The notes under the pieces were generated by a model, which ran no database searches, had not been told where the DNA came from, and saw nothing but the letters and a program-made list of their open reading frames with translations. The translations under genes and the position numbers were made by a program. A stretch of 32,085 nt of DNA, taken from Candidatus Bathyarchaeota archaeon. GTDB taxonomy: Archaea > Thermoproteota > Bathyarchaeia > Bathyarchaeales > Bathycorpusculaceae. Below are positions 10,179 to 23,222 of this stretch, one piece after another (within the stretch, counting starts at the first letter, position 1; every line of letters begins with the position of its first letter). The stretch covers positions 1 to 32,085 of the forward strand of contig JASEJA010000007.1 of the NCBI GenBank assembly GCA_030017755.1. The letters run 5' to 3'.

Positions 10179-11070
10179 ATGCCAAGGATAAGCTTAGATG
10201 GAATTTTTGTGCCGCATATAACGCCTTTCATAAGGGAAGGCGAATTGGACGAAGAGGCTTTGAGAAAATGCTTAAGGTTTCGGGTTGATGGTGGAGTTTC
10301 TGGGCTTGTGCCTTGTGGAAGCAATGGTGAAGCGCCTTACCTCAACAGAGAGGAGCGAAAGAAAGTTATTGAAATTGTGATGGAGGAGGCTGGCGGAGGG
10401 TCAGCGTCATTGCTGGAACGGGAAGCCTAAGCACAAGAGAAACCATCCAATTTACAAGGGATGCTAAAGAGTTGGGTGTTGACGCCGCTTTGGTGGTGAC
10501 GCCGTTTTATTTTAAACTTCAAATAGGGAGTTGATAGCGCATTATAAAGCCGTCTTAGAAGCCGTTGACCTACCAATAGTGCTTTATAGCGTGCCAAAAT
10601 TCACAGGCTTTTCCTTAGACCCGGCTGTGATTGCTCAGCTTGCTTCGGAATATGAAAATGTTGTGGGCGTAAAAGACAGCGGAGGCAACATTGGAAGCAT
10701 AGCTGAAACTATCCGATTGGCTGGAGACAAAATTTCAGTGTTAGCTGGAACCGCTGATGTTACTCTTCCAACCCTAATGTTGGGAGGGAAGGGTGCCGTA
10801 ATCGCTGTGGCAAATGTTTTCCCAAGAATTTACCGAAGTCTGTATGACGCTTTCAAGAGGGGCGATTATGAAAAAGCAAGCCTTTTGCAGCAGCGCTTAA
10901 ACTACTTAAATGAAATTCTCGTGAAAAAGTACAATCAACTCTCAACAATAAAGGAGGCATTAAAACTGTTTGGCTTGCTAGCGGGTTACCCGCGAAGTCC
11001 AGCACTGCCATTGAGCGAGGAGGAGAGAAGGGAAATAGAAGAAGCGCTTAAAGCTGTAGAGGCAACATAA
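10179..11070 (+). pseudogene. Dihydrodipicolinate synthase / N-acetylneuraminate lyase family protein with two frameshifts
   Basis: ORFs 10179..10430 and 10531..11070 plus an intervening third-frame stretch [40 protein letters not shown] join into one DapA-like protein. Catalytic motifs LYSVPKFTG and VVGVKDSGG are intact. Confidence 0.85.
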
Positions 11071-13485: not shown

Positions 13486-14631
13486 TTATGGGCTTTTTTC
13501 CATCTGGTAAAGGTTTAATTCTATGTTTAATGGTTTTTCTGGCTCTGCATATGGTTCAAGGTTGAAAAGTTGAGGCGCAATTGTTCCGAACCCGCTTAAG
13601 ACATGGAGGGAATTCACACCCGTCATAACTAATGTGACTTTTAATTTTCCATCCTGTTGTGGGTTTACCCTTGCGCCCCATATGACTAAAGCGTTATTAT
13701 CCATCATTTCTGTTACTATTTCGCCTACGCGGTTTGCCTCTTCAATGGTCATTTGGCTGTCGCCAGTAACATGAATTAGGGCTCCAGTGGCGCCCATATA
13801 ATCCACATCTAATAATGGACTTCTTAGTGCGTTTCGAACGGCTTCTTCTGCCCTGTTTGGTGCGTCTGATTCGCCTACGCCTACAACGGCAACTCCGCCC
13901 CGCTTAACAATAGTTTTGAAATCTGAGAAGTCAAGGTTGATTAGGCTTGGCGCCGAAATTGTTTCAACTATTCCCTTAATCATGTTCGCCAAAACCTGGT
14001 CCGCCATCCTAAAGGCTTCGTTTATTGGTAATTGAGGCATAAGATGCATAAGCTTATTATTGTCTATTACAACAACGGTGTCGCATTGTCTCCGCATCTC
14101 CGTTAGCGCTGCAGCTGCATACTCAATTCTTCCCTTTTCAATACGAAAAGGCGTTGTTACAACACCAACAGTTATCGCCCCTTTTCTTCTGGCAATTTCC
14201 GCAATGACTGGCGCAGCGCCAGTTCCTGTTCCTCCGCCCAAACCAGCCGTTATAAATGCTATGTCCACGTCGGAAAGCAAATCCTCTATTCGCTTTCTGG
14301 ACTCTTCAATTGCTGCCCTTCCAAGCTTTGGGTCGCCACCCACACCCAACCCTTTTGTGAGTTTTTCCCCTATCAAAACTTTCTGATGAGCCCTTGAAAC
14401 GCTCAAATGGAGCGCATCTGTATTTACTGCAATACATTCTGCGCCGACAATACCCATCTCCATCAGCCTACTAACAGTATTATTGCCAGCCCCGCCAACG
14501 CCTATCACAACTATGCGGCAGTGACCGAGAGGCAGAACTTCCCCGCTTACTTCGTTATGCCAAGTATACCTAAGCGCATGCTCCGCTGGGCTAGTTTTAG
14601 CCAACCCTCTTCCTCCGAACAACCTCATCAT
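13486..14631 (-). CDS. ftsZ: Cell division protein FtsZ (FtsZ2-like)
   Basis: 381 aa; VIGVGGAGNNTVSRL, tubulin signature GLGGGTGTGAAPVIAEIA, VVTTPFRIEKGR, VIDNNKL. Confidence 0.97.
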   Translation of the reverse strand: MMRLFGGRGLAKTSPAEHALRYTWHNEVSGEVLPLGHCRIVVIGVGGAGNNTVSRLMEMGIVGAECIAVNTDALHLSVSRAHQKVLIGEKLTKGLGVGGDPKLGRAAIEESRKRIEDLLSDVDIAFITAGLGGGTGTGAAPVIAEIARRKGAITVGVVTTPFRIEKGRIEYAAAALTEMRRQCDTVVVIDNNKLMHLMPQLPINEAFRMADQVLANMIKGIVETISAPSLINLDFSDFKTIVKRGGVAVVGVGESDAPNRAEEAVRNALRSPLLDVDYMGATGALIHVTGDSQMTIEEANRVGEIVTEMMDNNALVIWGARVNPQQDGKLKVTLVMTGVNSLHVLSGFGTIAPQLFNLEPYAEPEKPLNIELNLYQMEKSP

Positions 14632-16965: not shown

Positions 16966-17709
16966 TTAACTTAACCGCTTTGTTAAAGTTTTTTCATGTA
17001 ATTTTATCGCTGCCAAAGAGAGTACAAAAGCAAAAACTATTATCATTAGAAGGTTTAATGCCAATGGATAATAGCCCTTTTCTAATATTAGCTGTCTTAT
17101 TAGGTCTGTGAAATATGTTAATGGCGAAAAAGACGCTATTATTCTTCCCCACTCTGGCAGCTGCTCAACTGGTATGAAAACTCCGCTGATGAAAACCAAT
17201 GGGAATTTGACTAGGGAAGATAACATCTGGGATGTGGCTGGAATATCAGTTGGCGGATAAGCTGACAAAAGAATGCTTAAGGCAGAAAAACAAAAGTTTG
17301 CGATAATTAGGCTGAAAAGCAAAACTATGAAGTTTAACAACCCTATATTTAGAGTCAAAGCGTAAAGAAGCGAACTACAGATATGACAAGTCCGAAAAGG
17401 AAAGCATATCTCCGAAAATAATTGTCCAAAGAGCAACTGGACAGCATAAAAGTCTTTCAAGGGTTTTTGAGCGGGTTTCCCAAGGAACGATGGTAGGGCC
17501 TACTGATGTGGCTGTGAAAAACGTTGTCATTCCAATTAAACCCGGTAATACCTCTTTTAATGGTATATTTCTTCCTATAACATAAGCCAGAGCCAAAAAA
17601 GCGGGAATACTAATCCGAAAATAATAACTGGTCCTTTTGAATAGTAAATTTTTATGTTCTTTTTGGCTATGACAAAAGAGCGCCTAAATTGTTCTGTAAA
17701 ATGACTCAA
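16966..17709 (-). pseudogene. ABC-2 type transporter permease, multiply frameshifted
   Basis: Pieces in three frames join to (L)SHFTEQFRRSFVIAKKNIKIYYSKGPVIIFGLVFPLF / LALAYVIGRNIPLKEVLPGLIGMTTFFTATSVGPTIVPWETRSKTLERLLCCPVALWTIIFGDM / AFLFGLVISVV / SLLYALTLNIGLLN...LSLAAIKLHEKTLTKRLS. Confidence 0.85.
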
Positions 17710-18332
17710 ACTGTTGCCTCCTTTTCTTTTATGAGTTTTATGAAAACGTCCTCCAATGAGGGCATCATCGTGTTTAAACTTAAAATGCGTAGGCGTTTCT
17801 GTTTGGCAAATTCCACTAAAAATTCTATTACGGCTGATGGGTTAGCTGTATAAACTCGCACCTTATTTCCAGCAAAGGAAGCCTTGCTGATGTTTGGGCT
17901 TTTTGAAATTTCTTCAATATTCACTTGTTTGTCAAAGAGTGCTTCTATGTATTGTAGTTCCACGCTTTGAGCTCTTAGGTTTTCAGGCGTGTCTATGGCG
18001 GCTATTTTCCCTTGGTTTATGATTGCTGTTCTGTGGCCTATAGCTGGTTTGCTTCTTCCATGTGTGGGTTGAAAGGAAAACAGTCTTTCCATCCTTATTG
18101 TATTGGGTTATTTTCTCTCGCAGAAGTCTGGCACTTTCAACATCAAGCCCAGAAGTCGGTTCATCAAGAAAAAGCACTTCTGGATGGTTCACTAAAGCCA
18201 TACATAATAGAAGTTTTTGCTTCATTCCTTTCGAAAAGCCTCTAACAAGTTTATCCTTAACTTCGTATAATCCGAATTCCTTCAAAAGTTTGGTGGCGTT
18301 TTCCCTAAGTCTATGGCTTGGAACTCCATAGC
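17706..18332 (-). pseudogene. ABC transporter ATP-binding protein, 5'-truncated and frameshifted
   Basis: YGVPSHRLRENATKLLKEFGLYEVKDKLVRGFSKGMKQKLLLCMALVNHPEVLFLDEPTSGLD...FLSTH / MEEANQL / GHRTAIINQGKIAAIDTPENL... in three frames. Signature and Walker B are present; the Walker A region is absent. Confidence 0.88.
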
Positions 18333-18348
18333 GTGGAACATGGAGTTC
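18321..18348. repeat. 9-bp inverted repeat at the ABC/agmatinase junction
   Basis: GAACTCCAT (18321-18329) and ATGGAGTTC (18340-18348), 10-nt spacer. Confidence 0.8.
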
Positions 18349-18615
18349 ACTTGTTTGGACGATGTTAATAACGTGTATTTATCCTTCGATGTTGACGTTT
18401 TAGATCCAGCATTTGCCCCAGGAGTTCGCAATCCAGAAGGTGGAGGAATAACATTAAGAAACCTTATAAACGTAATCCATAACTTGAAAAGTTTAAACAT
18501 GATGGCCTTAGACGTTGTGGAAGCAAATCCAGATTATGACTGCATGGGCATAACTTTTTGCAGCACATTAAAATTCATCAGAGAATTTTTAGGAGTTGCT
18601 GCTGCAAAACTCTAA
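18340..18615 (+). pseudogene. Agmatinase/arginase-family C-terminal fragment
   Basis: VYLSFDVDVLDPAFAPGVRNPEGGGITLRNLINVIHNLKSLNMMALDVVEANPDYDCMGIT matches the ureohydrolase C-terminus; the N-terminal two-thirds is absent. Confidence 0.88.
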
Positions 18616-18660: not shown

Positions 18661-19818
18661 CTAAGGAATTATTTCGCAGCCGTTGTACTTCATGAATTTA
18701 AAGTCTTCCAACCGAATTTTCTCTTGTCTAATAAGCTTTTGTATCCTTGGCATTTCAGCGTGTATGGCTTCTATTAGATTTCTCACAGTTTTACAAACTA
18801 ATCTATAGGCAGAGGCATTCCAACGTTTAGTAACATTAGCGTATAGGCATCTTCCTCCACACGCGGTGAAAATTTCACATTTTGTACATGGTTCTCCGAC
18901 GAAAATTTTCCTAAGCCTTAAAGGGTTAACATTGCGTATGTGCCCTAAATAGTAGTTTTTCATTCCCCACATGCTTGGACATGGAATTATGTGGCCATCA
19001 GTCTGTATGGCATAATTTATCCAGCCCCCTCCACAACGCAAAAGGCTTTCCTCTTCATTGAAAATAATTGAGTTTGCTATTCCAAGAAAAGGATAAAGCC
19101 GCAAGACCGCGCAGTTCCTTTCCATAAAGTCAACCCAAAAACCCACAAGCTTACGAATTCTTGGATTATAGTTTTCTTCACTCCATTTTTTGAAGTTTCT
19201 CCGCTCGAAATCCTTCCAAAAACCAGCGTTCAACTGCCAATGTATAGAAGAGAATGGAAACTCTTTGTTCTCCACAAGCCACCTAACCTGCGTGTAAATG
19301 TCCGTCTGCTCCATAACAGTCATACGCGCAATAATTTCACCTTTAAAGCCGTTCCGCCTAATTAACTTCAAATTATCAATGACTTTTCTGAAAGTGCCAC
19401 GCCCCCTATAAAAGTCTGTTAGGGCTTCGTCGCCGTCTATGGAGACCAAAATTGTATGGAAACGATTAACATATTCTGGCTCCAACCTGTCCAGAAGCAA
19501 ACCATTCGTTTGAACAATAAAATACTTAGCCCTAACATTATCCATAAACCGCTTAATCTCATCCAAACAAAGCAATGGTTCGCCACCATAAAAAATCAAA
19601 ACGCAGTCTGCATCATGCCTACAAAACCCATCCAACAAACCAACACTATAACTTACCCTTTTAGGCAAGGAATAATCAACATCAAAACCACCAAAACCCA
19701 CATCAAAATCTTCTAAGGCTTCACCAAAACAGTATCGACACTGCAAATTACACTCCGTAGTCAACATAACATGAAAGAACACGCTTACGTCCTCCCCTAA
19801 AACAGGAAGCCTAACCAA
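18661..19818 (-). CDS. Radical SAM/SPASM putative peptide-modifying enzyme
   Basis: 385 aa, TTG start; CxxxCxxC TTECNLQCRYCFGEA; SPASM-type C-terminal cysteines (CGGGWINYAIQTDGHIIPCPS...CTKCEIFTACGGRCLYA). Resembles the archaeal AF1577-type family from memory. Confidence 0.88.
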   Translation of the reverse strand: MVRLPVLGEDVSVFFHVMLTTECNLQCRYCFGEALEDFDVGFGGFDVDYSLPKRVSYSVGLLDGFCRHDADCVLIFYGGEPLLCLDEIKRFMDNVRAKYFIVQTNGLLLDRLEPEYVNRFHTILVSIDGDEALTDFYRGRGTFRKVIDNLKLIRRNGFKGEIIARMTVMEQTDIYTQVRWLVENKEFPFSSIHWQLNAGFWKDFERRNFKKWSEENYNPRIRKLVGFWVDFMERNCAVLRLYPFLGIANSIIFNEEESLLRCGGGWINYAIQTDGHIIPCPSMWGMKNYYLGHIRNVNPLRLRKIFVGEPCTKCEIFTACGGRCLYANVTKRWNASAYRLVCKTVRNLIEAIHAEMPRIQKLIRQEKIRLEDFKFMKYNGCEIIP

Positions 19819-19821
19819 TTT

Positions 19822-21051
19822 TTAAGCATATTTTTCCTTAATCTTCTTAGCCTTCTCAATATACGCTCTAAGCTCCCGCTCACGAATCTTTTTCTCAGGC
19901 AAAGTCTCAGGAGCATACATAAGCGGAACAACAGCCAAAAACAGAAAGAGTGCGGCAAAGGAGAAAATTGCATATTCCGACACCATATTCATTATAAAGG
20001 GACCTAGTGTTACTCGCAGAAAGCCAGAAAGCGCATAAGGCAACAGTCCAAGTGCATAATATTTCTCGCTTGATTTTTCATGTGCAAGGTCTCCCCATAT
20101 TGTGAACCAAAAAATCACGCCTATTATTCCCCAAGCAATTCCGTCAATAATTGTGTACAAGTACCATGCGTAAATATTAAAGGGATAGATTCCAAGCACA
20201 GCATACCCGATACCAAAGATTATAAATCCACTTACGAGAGTTGGCTTCCGTCCAATGTTATCTGCAAGGAAACCAGCCACAAGAGCAAAAATCCCTGCAA
20301 TAATGTTGGTTACAAGAACCGAAGATTCTATAAATTCCTCTTCATAGACCCTGCTGCATATAGACCAACTCAAATAGTTAATTAACGAGAACATGGTCCA
20401 TGGAACAAAGTAAAGAAGCACTGAGCGATCTTTAAAAAGTGAAATTATGGAATAGTTTTTCTTATGTTCTCCATTTTCAAAAAGACTTCCCAATAGGAGA
20501 AAGCCTACTAAGCCAGAGAGTCTCCAAGCTGCTAATACCAGCGCATATAAAGACAGGTTTGCTGGAACTATAAATCCAAAAGCGAACACTCCAAAGAACA
20601 TCGAAAGAATTACTATTGATCCGAACCGCGCTCGGTTCTCTTCCTTCGTTACATCTGAAAAACTAGCTAGGCAGATAGGCAACCCAAGTCCAAACGACAC
20701 ACTTACTAAAGGTAGGAGGAATGACACATTGGCTATCGTTGCGTTTTCTAATATCACCAGTGATAAAGAAGAAAGTACTCCTATCAAATTCCATGTTAAA
20801 AGAAAATATTTTCGGCTAGTCAGTTTGTTTACGAGAGAAGCACCAGCCAATATGGAGACAATCGCACCTAAAAACAGTATAATGTAAAAAATCAGTTTCT
20901 CACAATAAACAAAGCATATTTCGTCAATAGCATCTCTTAGAATTGCAGAAGCGTAAAAGTACCAAACAAACACATTGGCAATCATAAGCATATTTCCTAA
21001 TGCGACCTTTAGGGGAATACCCATTTTTGTAAAAGGCAAATGCATTTGCAT
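19822..21051 (-). CDS. MFS transporter
   Basis: 409 aa, about 12 hydrophobic segments, AGFLADNIGRKPTLVSGF loop motif; 3 nt separate its stop from the rSAM start. Confidence 0.85.
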   Translation of the reverse strand: MQMHLPFTKMGIPLKVALGNMLMIANVFVWYFYASAILRDAIDEICFVYCEKLIFYIILFLGAIVSILAGASLVNKLTSRKYFLLTWNLIGVLSSLSLVILENATIANVSFLLPLVSVSFGLGLPICLASFSDVTKEENRARFGSIVILSMFFGVFAFGFIVPANLSLYALVLAAWRLSGLVGFLLLGSLFENGEHKKNYSIISLFKDRSVLLYFVPWTMFSLINYLSWSICSRVYEEEFIESSVLVTNIIAGIFALVAGFLADNIGRKPTLVSGFIIFGIGYAVLGIYPFNIYAWYLYTIIDGIAWGIIGVIFWFTIWGDLAHEKSSEKYYALGLLPYALSGFLRVTLGPFIMNMVSEYAIFSFAALFLFLAVVPLMYAPETLPEKKIRERELRAYIEKAKKIKEKYA

Positions 21052-21061
21052 TGAGCGCTCA
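21036..21061. promoter_or_regulatory. Tandem perfect palindromes at the MFS-rSAM operon 5' end
   Basis: GCAAATGCATTTGC (21036-21049) and TGAGCGCTCA (21052-21061), both perfect. Confidence 0.45.
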
Positions 21062-21148
21062 GAATTTTGTATAACCCGATTTCAGATAAAGATTTAGTAT
21101 TTAGAATATGGAGTTCCAATACATAAAGCGCAAAGCTTTTAAGTCTTA

Positions 21149-21235
21149 ATGTTCAACAATAATACAGTTGGCGGGAGGAAGATGAAGGCTCGAAAAAAGC
21201 CAATACGGCTATTTGGCGGACGTCTCTGGTTGTAG
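21149..21235 (+). CDS. Candidate micropeptide / RiPP precursor
   Basis: In-frame ORF MFNNNTVGGRKMKARKKPIRLFGGRLWL* from 21149 (28 aa), or MKARKKPIRLFGGRLWL* from 21182 (17 aa) preceded by GGGAGG (21173-21178). TATA-like stretches at about 21119-21127 and 21135-21143. Confidence 0.45.
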   Translation: MFNNNTVGGRKMKARKKPIRLFGGRLWL

Positions 21236-21267
21236 ACTAGCTTTTATAGGTTAGCTAGAGCTAGTCT
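21234..21267. terminator. Inverted repeat at convergent 3' ends of the micropeptide ORF and polyprenyl synthase
   Basis: AGACTAGCT (21234-21242) / AGCTAGTCT (21259-21267), 9-bp perfect arms, 16-nt loop. Confidence 0.4.
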
Positions 21268-22233
21268 TAATAGGTCCCTTAATAAATTGATGCTTTTACA
21301 TCTTTTATATTTGCTTAATATATTTTTTCCCTCTTCTATCAAACTCCGCATTTCAGCCCTAAAAATTTGAACCTCTTTTGTTTCTAACACGACATCTGCT
21401 ACTTCCATTGCGTCATCATCTGTTAACTCCTTTTTCTTGAGCAAATGCGTTATTTTTTCCTTTGCTTTTGGATTACACATGGCATACAACATTGGTAATG
21501 GCAAACATTCGTTGTCTCTTCTGTTCCTAAGTTCTTCTGCCTCGAAAATATCTACAAACTCGTCTCTAATATTCATTAGCATACCAAATATTCTGCCGAT
21601 CTTCCCCCACTCTTCAACTTCCTCTTGTGTTGCGCCTCCAACCACGGCGCCAATGCGCGCCGTGGCTTCTGCGACGGCTGCTTTCCTTCTGATTATGTCT
21701 AGATACTCTTCCGGAGTCAAGTTCCAGTTGCCTTTAAGGCTAGCTTCTTTCGCTTCTGCTGTTCCAAGTTCAAAAAAGCCTCGTTTTAAGAGTTCTTGCA
21801 CAGTCTTTTCATGTTCTTTTGGTAGTGTTTCACATGCAGCATTCAGAAGTGTAAGTCCTTCAAACAATAACGCATCGCCCGCGAGAAGCGAAATGTCTTG
21901 TCCAAACTTGCCGAATGCTGTTGCCTTTGAGCCTTTCGTTTTAGATTTGTCTATAATATCATCATGTATATCCGCTGCCCCTGTAAGAAGCACCAATGCA
22001 GCGCCTATTGACGCTGTCTTTTCTGGATTGCCGCCAACAGCTTCACATGCAATCGCAAGCAGCGCAGGATGTTGAAAATTACGCCATTCTTGAATAAAAT
22101 AACTTACGGCTTCGTGGAGGGTTTTGTGTTCAAACTTTTCCTTCGTTGTGATTTCTTTTGCAATTTCGTAAGCTTTTCTTCCTAGCCGCTCAATTTCTTT
22201 TTGTATTTTCTCAACTGCTTCTTTGCTGCTCAT
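21244..22233 (-). CDS. Polyprenyl (geranylgeranyl-type) diphosphate synthase
   Basis: 329 aa; first Asp-rich motif DIHDDIIDKS, second motif variant NIRDEFVDIFE. Confidence 0.88.
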   Translation of the reverse strand: MSSKEAVEKIQKEIERLGRKAYEIAKEITTKEKFEHKTLHEAVSYFIQEWRNFQHPALLAIACEAVGGNPEKTASIGAALVLLTGAADIHDDIIDKSKTKGSKATAFGKFGQDISLLAGDALLFEGLTLLNAACETLPKEHEKTVQELLKRGFFELGTAEAKEASLKGNWNLTPEEYLDIIRRKAAVAEATARIGAVVGGATQEEVEEWGKIGRIFGMLMNIRDEFVDIFEAEELRNRRDNECLPLPMLYAMCNPKAKEKITHLLKKKELTDDDAMEVADVVLETKEVQIFRAEMRSLIEEGKNILSKYKRCKSINLLRDLLRLALANL

Positions 22234-22244
22234 ATTAATCGGTT

Positions 22245-22571
22245 TTATTTTATATTTTGTTTTGATATTTGTTCTTTTAGTATGCTGTTATACGCGTCAA
22301 TATATTCCATTCCTTTTTCTGTTATTGTGTATATTTTTCTTGTTCTTCCGCCTTGTTGTTGTTTTTGGCTTTTTAGGAAGCCTTTTTGTTCTAACGCATT
22401 TAACAGTGGGTATAGGGCTCCGTGGCGTAGTTTTACGCCTGTTGTGGCTTCTATTTGTTTTTTTATTTTGTAACCCCACATTGGTTCTGCAGTTAGCAGC
22501 CTTAGTGTTTGGATGTCTAGTAGGTTTCTGGTTATGCGTTGAACAATTTCTTTTCTGAACTGTTCAGTCAT
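22245..22571 (-). CDS. PadR-family transcriptional regulator
   Basis: 108 aa; LTAEPMWGYKIKKQIEATTGVKLRHGALYPLLNALEQKGFLKSQKQQQGGRTRKIYTITEKG. Confidence 0.9.
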   Translation of the reverse strand: MTEQFRKEIVQRITRNLLDIQTLRLLTAEPMWGYKIKKQIEATTGVKLRHGALYPLLNALEQKGFLKSQKQQQGGRTRKIYTITEKGMEYIDAYNSILKEQISKQNIK

Positions 22572-22734: not shown

Positions 22735-22768
22735 ATATGTCTAAAAAGAGACATATTGTACACGTGTA
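22735..22768. promoter_or_regulatory. Candidate PadR operator upstream of padR-2
   Basis: ATATGTCT (22735-22742)-N6-AGACATAT (22749-22756), then perfect palindrome TACACGTGTA (22759-22768), downstream of TATA-like CTTTATAG. Confidence 0.5.
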
Positions 22769-22802
22769 GAACAAAAAAACACATTAAAGGAAGGATAAAA
22801 TA

Positions 22803-23222
22803 ATGGTTAACAACTCAAAAGAAGTTCAAGTCAAATTGATGAAAGGCTTACTAGACCTAATAGTGCTCCAGTTTCTAAGCTCGCAGCCAATGCACGGCTA
22901 CCAGATAATCACAAAAGTACGCAAGACTTTTGGGGTCTATTTTGGACCAAGCACAATTTATCCGCTCCTAAACGCCTTAGAAAAGAAGGGATACGTGAAA
23001 AGTGAATGGAATATGAACAGCGAAAGACCGAGGAAAGTTTACAAGTTAACATCTGAGGGACAAAGCCTACTGAACTTCACAGAGGACTCGCTTAACTTCA
23101 TCTGCCGAAAAATTGGAACGCAAAGACTACCGAAAGGCGGTTTGGGAGAGGAAAACGCTCCTCAGCCAGCTTTGCGTCCTTTCCTAAAGAAAATTGAAGA
23201 AAAGCCAGTGCTCAAACTGTAA
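22803..23222 (+). CDS. PadR-family transcriptional regulator
   Basis: 139 aa; LSSQPMHGYQIITKVRKTFGVYFGPSTIYPLLNALEKKGYVKSEWNMNSERPRKVYKLTSEG; AAGGAAGG SD upstream. Confidence 0.92.
   Translation: MVNNSKEVQVKLMKGLLDLIVLQFLSSQPMHGYQIITKVRKTFGVYFGPSTIYPLLNALEKKGYVKSEWNMNSERPRKVYKLTSEGQSLLNFTEDSLNFICRKIGTQRLPKGGLGEENAPQPALRPFLKKIEEKPVLKL

Follow-up and report, generated by a model that had tools for sequence, protein, structure and literature searches.

Genes and features of the locus

We analyzed a stretch of 32,085 nucleotides (nt) from Candidatus Bathyarchaeota archaeon (GenBank assembly GCA_030017755.1, contig JASEJA010000007.1, positions 1 to 32,085), hereafter the window. Its source assembly belongs to Bathyarchaeia, is 1.2 Mb in size, and is 88% complete. 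The subject of this study is an unannotated gene for a peptide of 17 residues (the micropeptide), which lies in the gap between the genes for a polyprenyl-synthase-like protein and a major facilitator superfamily (MFS) transporter. A gene for a radical S-adenosylmethionine (radical SAM) enzyme with a SPASM domain follows the MFS gene. The features of the locus are as follows.

18661..19782, minus strand: TIGR04084 (AF0577) radical SAM/SPASM protein, probably accessory, with a proposed GTG start (306 bits; cysteines; not linked in every cluster, only in some)
19822..21051, minus strand: MFS transporter, proposed exporter (PF07690, 62.5 bits; adjacent in almost all clusters)
21136..21143, plus strand: TATA-like element CTTTTAAG of the micropeptide promoter (from the sequence; many loci have a similar element at the same place)
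21150..21158, no strand: promoter palindrome TGTTCAACA, candidate PadR operator, between the micropeptide and MFS genes (TGTWSWACA conservation)
21173..21178, plus strand: ribosome-binding site GGGAGG of the micropeptide (from the sequence; most homologs have a similar purine-rich site 5' of the start)
21182..21235, plus strand: micropeptide gene, 17 residues, MKARKKPIRLFGGRLWL (homologs at 88 loci with 87 distinct peptides; Arg invariant; dN/dS of 0.22)
21236..21265, no strand: short inverted repeat directly 3' of the micropeptide stop codon, a possible terminator (overlaps the 3' end of the polyprenyl-synthase-like gene)
21244..22233, minus strand: polyprenyl-synthase-like protein (PF00348), proposed peptide prenyltransferase (DDxxD kept, isopentenyl diphosphate motifs lost in 34 of 34 orthologs)
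22245..22571, minus strand: PadR-family regulator 1, upstream of the polyprenyl-synthase-like gene (PF03551, 72.6 bits; kept in many clusters)
22765..22773, no strand: further copy of the palindrome (minus-strand sequence TGTTCTACA), between the two padR genes (from the sequence)
22803..23222, plus strand: PadR-family regulator 2, divergent (matched by a PadR model trained on regulator 1 and its orthologs; conserved neighbor)

The radical SAM open reading frame (ORF), the MFS gene, and the divergent small ORF had been picked out in a first-pass annotation, and all three were confirmed where it had placed them. The polyprenyl-synthase-like gene, which proved to be a constant partner of the micropeptide, had been left unconnected to the system. 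The tiny basic ORF had been proposed in two forms, of 28 and 17 residues. It is a real gene, and its true form is the shorter one, which is preferred because GGGAGG at 21173-21178 precedes the ATG at 21182. The 17 residues comprise the leader MKARKKPIR and the proposed core LFGGRLWL. The 28-residue form, starting from the ATG at 21149, was rejected because this start lies at the edge of the conserved promoter palindrome and upstream of where transcription is expected to begin. Neither Rfam nor tRNA scanning of the window gave a match. A likeness of LFGGR to the N-terminus of an FtsZ-like protein (13486-14631, minus strand) was dismissed as chance.

The micropeptide belongs to a conserved gene family

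A protein search with the 17-residue query found no relative in 60 genomes. The peptides are too short and too variable for such a search, which is therefore blind to the family, and its members were recovered via synteny only. All data were derived from assemblies, largely metagenomic, and gene absence was judged on incomplete genomes. When 38 loci of the radical SAM gene were taken from named Bathyarchaeota and related records, a conserved series of polyprenyl-synthase-like, MFS, and radical SAM genes was observed, often with a padR gene in front. At almost every rSAM-linked locus, the gap between the polyprenyl-synthase-like and MFS genes contained a short antisense ORF preceded by a purine-rich ribosome-binding site.

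A rule for these gaps (start codon and ribosome-binding site, 10-21 residues, basic leader, and [VIAF]R) was built post hoc from the first 33 homologous gaps, in which it was matched 31 times antisense and never in sense, with 0.4 expected from dinucleotide shuffles. When the same rule was applied unchanged to 54 new gaps, 22 antisense and no sense matches were obtained (0.57 expected). Most of the remaining new gaps contained clear relatives that missed the rule because of their length, their spacing, or the residue preceding Arg, and these were picked up with a wider filter and by eye.

The family thus comprised 88 Bathyarchaeia loci with 87 distinct peptides of 8-23 residues and a mean net charge of +4.9 (for example, MRRKQKVPIRGWTAWGF, MKNNKPIRLAGSWI, MKKPIRPIRGVWW, MAKRVKKVPIRAGP, and MKKVRACGGW). 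Each begins with a K/R-rich segment, usually followed by P-x-R with an invariant Arg, and ends in a hypervariable, Trp-rich tail. Trp accounts for 21.7% of core residues and occurs at least once in 67 of the 87 cores, typically 1-3 residues away from the end. The pooled ratio of nonsynonymous to synonymous substitution rates (dN/dS) was 0.22 over 11 independent close pairs. The genes at loci L132 and L183 encode an identical peptide with 7 synonymous differences, and the invariant Arg is encoded by all six Arg codons across the family. These results establish the micropeptide as a real, conserved, unannotated gene family under purifying selection and settle its coding status. The idea, put forward at first pass, that homologous flanking regions would contain a conserved short ORF under coding selection was therefore borne out.

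The polyprenyl-synthase-like enzyme is also present in a second class of the same phylum, where 11 of 16 fetched loci had antisense micropeptides with the pattern MK-x-Y-N/S-P-T-x-[VI]-R-x-W (for example, MKKYNPTPIRIWVPVP). No micropeptide was found at the other five; L195, L198, and L201 stop at or shortly past the enzyme gene, and L202 and L207 have no detected MFS gene. Two tandem copies, each with its own ribosome-binding site, were observed at L192 (3370-3650) and L197, and the copies at L192 are identical (MKNYNPTPVRLWVPG).

The polyprenyl-synthase-like and MFS genes are the constant partners

We next asked which enzyme accompanies the micropeptide. Of 257 genomes of the class that were searched with the polyprenyl-synthase-like protein, 94 contained it, and 80 loci of its gene were fetched for neighborhood comparison. 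Many of these carried a padR gene, the polyprenyl-synthase-like gene, and the MFS gene without the radical SAM gene, and the micropeptide was still present. Almost every gap of this kind that was examined held a micropeptide, whether or not a radical SAM gene was linked. In genome G048, these genes accompany the micropeptide MQKKLPVRLYWR, and the radical SAM gene is located ~200 kb away. In eight micropeptide-bearing genomes that are 92-100% complete (G041, G060, G315, G049, G457, G384, G388, and G379), no radical SAM relative was found at an E-value of 1e-15, and the second-class micropeptides also have no linked radical SAM gene. Conversely, radical SAM-MFS pairs without the polyprenyl-synthase-like gene (L030, L032, and L033) had no recognizable micropeptide, including in a genome-wide search for the DNA pattern. 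On the enzyme tree, the radical SAM label switches 9 times, at least 6 of them on well-supported branches, and the presence of Trp in the core switches 5 times. The constant partners of the micropeptide are the polyprenyl-synthase-like and MFS genes, to which two padR genes are added in many clusters, and the radical SAM gene is not an obligate partner.

These results bear on the proposal of the first-pass annotation that the micropeptide is the substrate of the radical SAM/SPASM enzyme and that the MFS protein exports the product, which would make the locus a source of a radical SAM-type ribosomally synthesized and post-translationally modified peptide (RiPP) with an incidental polyprenyl-synthase-like gene. 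In many diverse clusters, the radical SAM gene does lie directly behind the MFS gene and micropeptide. Peptides are frequent substrates of SPASM enzymes, and the families that match the window protein next best are peptide maturases (PapB and nif11-like). However, an obligate link to a radical SAM maturase was not found: micropeptides remain where this gene is unlinked or was not found in the genome, and in another class without a linked copy, none was recognized where it occurs with the MFS gene and without the polyprenyl-synthase-like gene, and its linkage changes at least 6-9 times on the tree. We consider this explanation improbable. The part concerning a precursor peptide with an exporter is well supported, in that the micropeptide belongs with the MFS gene; the radical SAM enzyme as the defining modifier was not supported, although it may tailor the peptide in lineages carrying it.

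At L110 (1705-3328) and L192 (4853-6015), which belong to different classes, genes for a ParA-like ATPase and a small helix-turn-helix protein are located convergently behind the MFS gene, at the place of the radical SAM gene in the window. This arrangement may be an older conserved neighborhood.

The radical SAM/SPASM protein is a member of TIGR04084

The protein scored 306 bits against the TIGR04084 (AF0577) model, whose curated cutoff is 225, and the AF1577-type label given at first pass was corrected on this basis. The CxxxCxxC motif described there is present, and the SPASM cysteines are complete (C250, C268, C299, C302, C308, C312, and C330, numbered from the GTG start). C11, C15, C18, C250, C268, C299, C302, C308, and C312 are invariant in 24 sequences, and C330 is kept in at least 90%. 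The distance of 3 nt to the MFS gene holds for the TTG-start ORF (18661-19818). Homologs align from about residues 11-13, and a GGGAGG site (19791-19796, minus strand) lies upstream of the GTG at 19782; the most likely start is therefore this GTG, 39 nt past the MFS gene.

TIGR04084 members outside the linked clade have no conserved gene context. In other lineages (L041, L043-L047, L049, L051, and L068-L099), their genes have no conserved neighbor, and the substrate there is probably encoded elsewhere, unlinked. A search of open-licence papers returned no relevant literature on TIGR04084/AF0577, its substrate, or archaeal peptide prenylation.

Several genes of the window appear to be disrupted. 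Beside the radical SAM gene, two head-to-head genes (17983-18285, minus strand, and 18313-18615, plus strand) are both cut at about 18285-18313; one encodes an ATP-binding cassette (ABC) ATPase without its N-terminal part, and the other an agmatinase from which roughly the first 200 residues are missing. The junction has the appearance of a breakpoint left by rearrangement or of a chimeric assembly. The ABC transporter region (17375-18285, minus strand) is broken up into a number of short, overlapping ORFs, which points to frameshifts caused by decay or by assembly errors. A dihydrodipicolinate-synthase-like gene (10179-11070, plus strand) appears to be split into two ORFs, 10179-10430 and 10531-11070, and, judged from translations only, is probably frameshifted.

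The polyprenyl-synthase-like protein has lost its IPP-binding motifs

In the PRENYLTRANSFERASE-like enzyme, the allylic-diphosphate motif DDxxD, the first Asp-rich motif (FARM), was intact in 34 of 34 cluster proteins. In canonical enzymes, GGKRxRP, RRGxP, and FQxxDD bind isopentenyl diphosphate (IPP). All three were gone in the 34 cluster proteins and largely kept in 9 housekeeping paralogs, and the second Asp-rich motif (SARM) was partly retained in the cluster proteins. An AlphaFold2 model built with a 33-sequence alignment had a mean predicted local distance difference test score of 94.6. The best Foldseek matches included the Trp farnesyltransferase Ord1 amid canonical geranylgeranyl diphosphate (GGPP) synthases; Ord1 had template modeling (TM) scores of 0.70-0.75 and was also matched by sequence at 3e-14. 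The PF00348 fold with an intact DDxxD and lost IPP-binding determinants is the combination found in enzymes of the ComQ/PalQ/ChrPC type.

The best NCBIfam matches of the MFS protein, which are weak, were the exporters EmrD, BcbE, and EntS. The palindrome TGTWSWACA occurred in 72 of 88 micropeptide-MFS promoters and in 11 of 44 padR-padR intergenic regions, compared with 0.9 and 0.5 expected from mononucleotide shuffles, and is a candidate PadR operator.

The same features could also be explained by an unmodified peptide with a regulatory or signaling role, for instance as a PadR ligand, and an altered polyprenyl synthase producing a small terpenoid that the MFS protein exports. An enzyme that keeps DDxxD but no longer binds IPP would also fit a terpene-synthase-like activity, PadR regulators usually sense small molecules, and the palindrome sits in the micropeptide promoter. 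On the other hand, hypervariable cores behind a conserved basic leader resemble a product rather than a regulator, and the secreted protease beside the second-type peptides described below suggests extracellular maturation. This explanation seems unlikely to us.

A protease accompanies a second micropeptide

A second cluster type was found at L122, L139, L141, L146, and L167 (about 1.3-2.6 kb), where a divergent prenyltransferase-like gene is followed by genes for a protease, a micropeptide directly behind it, and an MFS protein. The protease is trypsin-like (PF00089) with a GDSGG motif and an N-terminal hydrophobic, signal-like segment and is predicted to be secreted. The second micropeptides of these five loci end in WW, and the L139 copy has no standard start codon. 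At L020/L165, L168, and L184, the protease and second micropeptide are located in front of the prenyltransferase-like gene. In these three clusters, the first and second peptides have like tails (TGWY/TGWY, LTGWY/LTGWY, and TGGWY/TGGWY). Second-type peptides can carry Lys at the Arg position. The like tails of the paired peptides, together with the protease, support a C-terminal core released by cleavage after Arg or Lys, but the loci concerned are related to one another.

Proposed function

The conserved leader, variable core, and linkage to enzyme and exporter genes form the pattern of a candidate RiPP precursor. We infer, as a somewhat better than even proposition, that the locus encodes a tiny ribosomally made peptide, which would be prenylated, exported, and used as a signal or antimicrobial, with the radical SAM protein in an accessory tailoring role. 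The micropeptide, with its basic leader ending in Arg and short Trp-rich core, would be expressed from the divergent promoter carrying the candidate PadR operator. The polyprenyl-synthase-like protein would bind an allylic diphosphate at DDxxD, be unable to bind IPP normally, and attach the prenyl moiety to the peptide, with Trp or another aromatic residue close to the C-terminus as the most likely acceptor. Export of the product would fall to the MFS protein. The core would be freed to act as a signal or antimicrobial by cleavage after the conserved Arg, performed by the secreted trypsin-like protease in clusters that encode one. The TIGR04084 enzyme would be an optional tailoring enzyme.

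Several observations weigh against this proposal. The top Foldseek match of the enzyme is an ordinary archaeal GGPP synthase, and the cluster proteins have no conserved Gln directly upstream of SARM, a Trp-recognition feature. Three loci of one genus (L066, L160, and L161) have both enzymes and no recognizable micropeptide. No PF00089 protease was found in the 88% complete genome of the window, and the clusters with matching tails are from closely related genomes, whose cores would be similar anyway. Twenty of the 87 cores have no Trp, which speaks against Trp as the sole acceptor. Eight of the 87 (for example, VGP, AGP, and ALPP) have no aromatic residue at all, indicating that Trp is not the acceptor in all peptides.

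The last point raises the alternative that the enzyme modifies a non-Trp residue, either the invariant Arg by guanidine prenylation or the C-terminus. Arg is the sole residue that every first-type peptide has, even where aromatics are absent, and the enzyme lacks the Trp-recognition Gln. Guanidine prenylation is known for unrelated cyanobactin enzymes. By contrast, Trp is strongly enriched in the core, a cleavage site is the better fit for a position that can be Lys in second-type peptides, and the known peptide-acting enzymes of this fold target Trp (PMC13290415). We regard a non-Trp acceptor as doubtful, perhaps one chance in a few.

A broader and more tentative possibility, which we would not yet bet on, is a phylum-wide archaeal system of peptide communication or antimicrobials. 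In it, micropeptides of 8-23 residues would be lipid-tagged by a new polyprenyl-synthase-derived clade whose acceptor is in some cases Arg or the C-terminus instead of Trp, exported by MFS proteins, cut after Arg or Lys, sensed through PadR, and in some lineages tailored by SPASM enzymes. To our knowledge, lipid-tagged tiny peptides have so far been found only in bacteria, and archaeal peptide signaling is largely uncharted. If prenylation is correct, archaea make post-translationally prenylated peptides whose precursors are among the shortest known, spread over the abundant, little-cultured Bathyarchaeia and at least one other class, and a further enzyme clade may prenylate peptides without the known Trp-recognition residue. 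TIGR04084, for which the searched literature gave no known substrate, gains a candidate substrate in some lineages, and concrete genes and a predicted operator are now available for archaeal peptide signaling.

Comparison with known systems

The window radical SAM protein resembles the TIGR04084/AF0577 family in scoring above its curated cutoff and differs from most members, which have neither a conserved context nor a micropeptide. Ord1 (PDB 9v4g-9v4j) shares the fold of the polyprenyl-synthase-like protein but acts on free Trp, and its conserved Gln is not present here. ComQ, PalQ, and ChrPC are Trp-acting peptide prenyltransferases in which the first motif is kept and a Gln that serves Trp precedes the second motif (PMC5331326, PMC10853753, PMC13290415), and enzymes of the ComQ/PalQ/Ord1 type recognize Trp via this Gln (PMC13290415). 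The polyprenyl-synthase-like protein resembles the bacterial peptide Trp-prenyltransferases ComQ and PalQ but is not a member of the ComQ/PalQ/ChrPC group, in which we did not place it because the Gln is absent.

In the ComQ/ComX system of Bacillus comQXPA quorum sensing (PMC5331326), as here, a polyprenyl-synthase-fold enzyme with an intact FARM is encoded beside a short Trp-containing peptide with a species-specific C-terminal core, and regulator genes are nearby. The system described here differs in being archaeal, in a precursor of 8-23 rather than 53-58 residues with a basic leader ending in Arg, and in a partly retained second Asp-rich motif in place of the NDxxx/GDxxx of ComQ. It also has an MFS exporter, PadR instead of ComP/ComA, and often a radical SAM enzyme. 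Modification occurs at the third or fourth residue from the end in ComX and at the final residue in PalX (PMC5331326, PMC10853753). PalQ of Paenibacillus alvei, a C-terminal Trp prenyltransferase (PMC10853753), is likewise a trans-isoprenyl-diphosphate-synthase-like enzyme whose gene adjoins that of a peptide ending in Trp or carrying it close to the C-terminus. The leader of PalX is long and of the NHLP type, whereas the leader here is about 4-19 residues and the cores often run past Trp, and the Gln upstream of SARM in PalQ has no counterpart. The reported preference of PalQ for GW/GGW (PMC13290415) agrees with cores of the present family such as AVGGW, ACGGW, and TGGWY.
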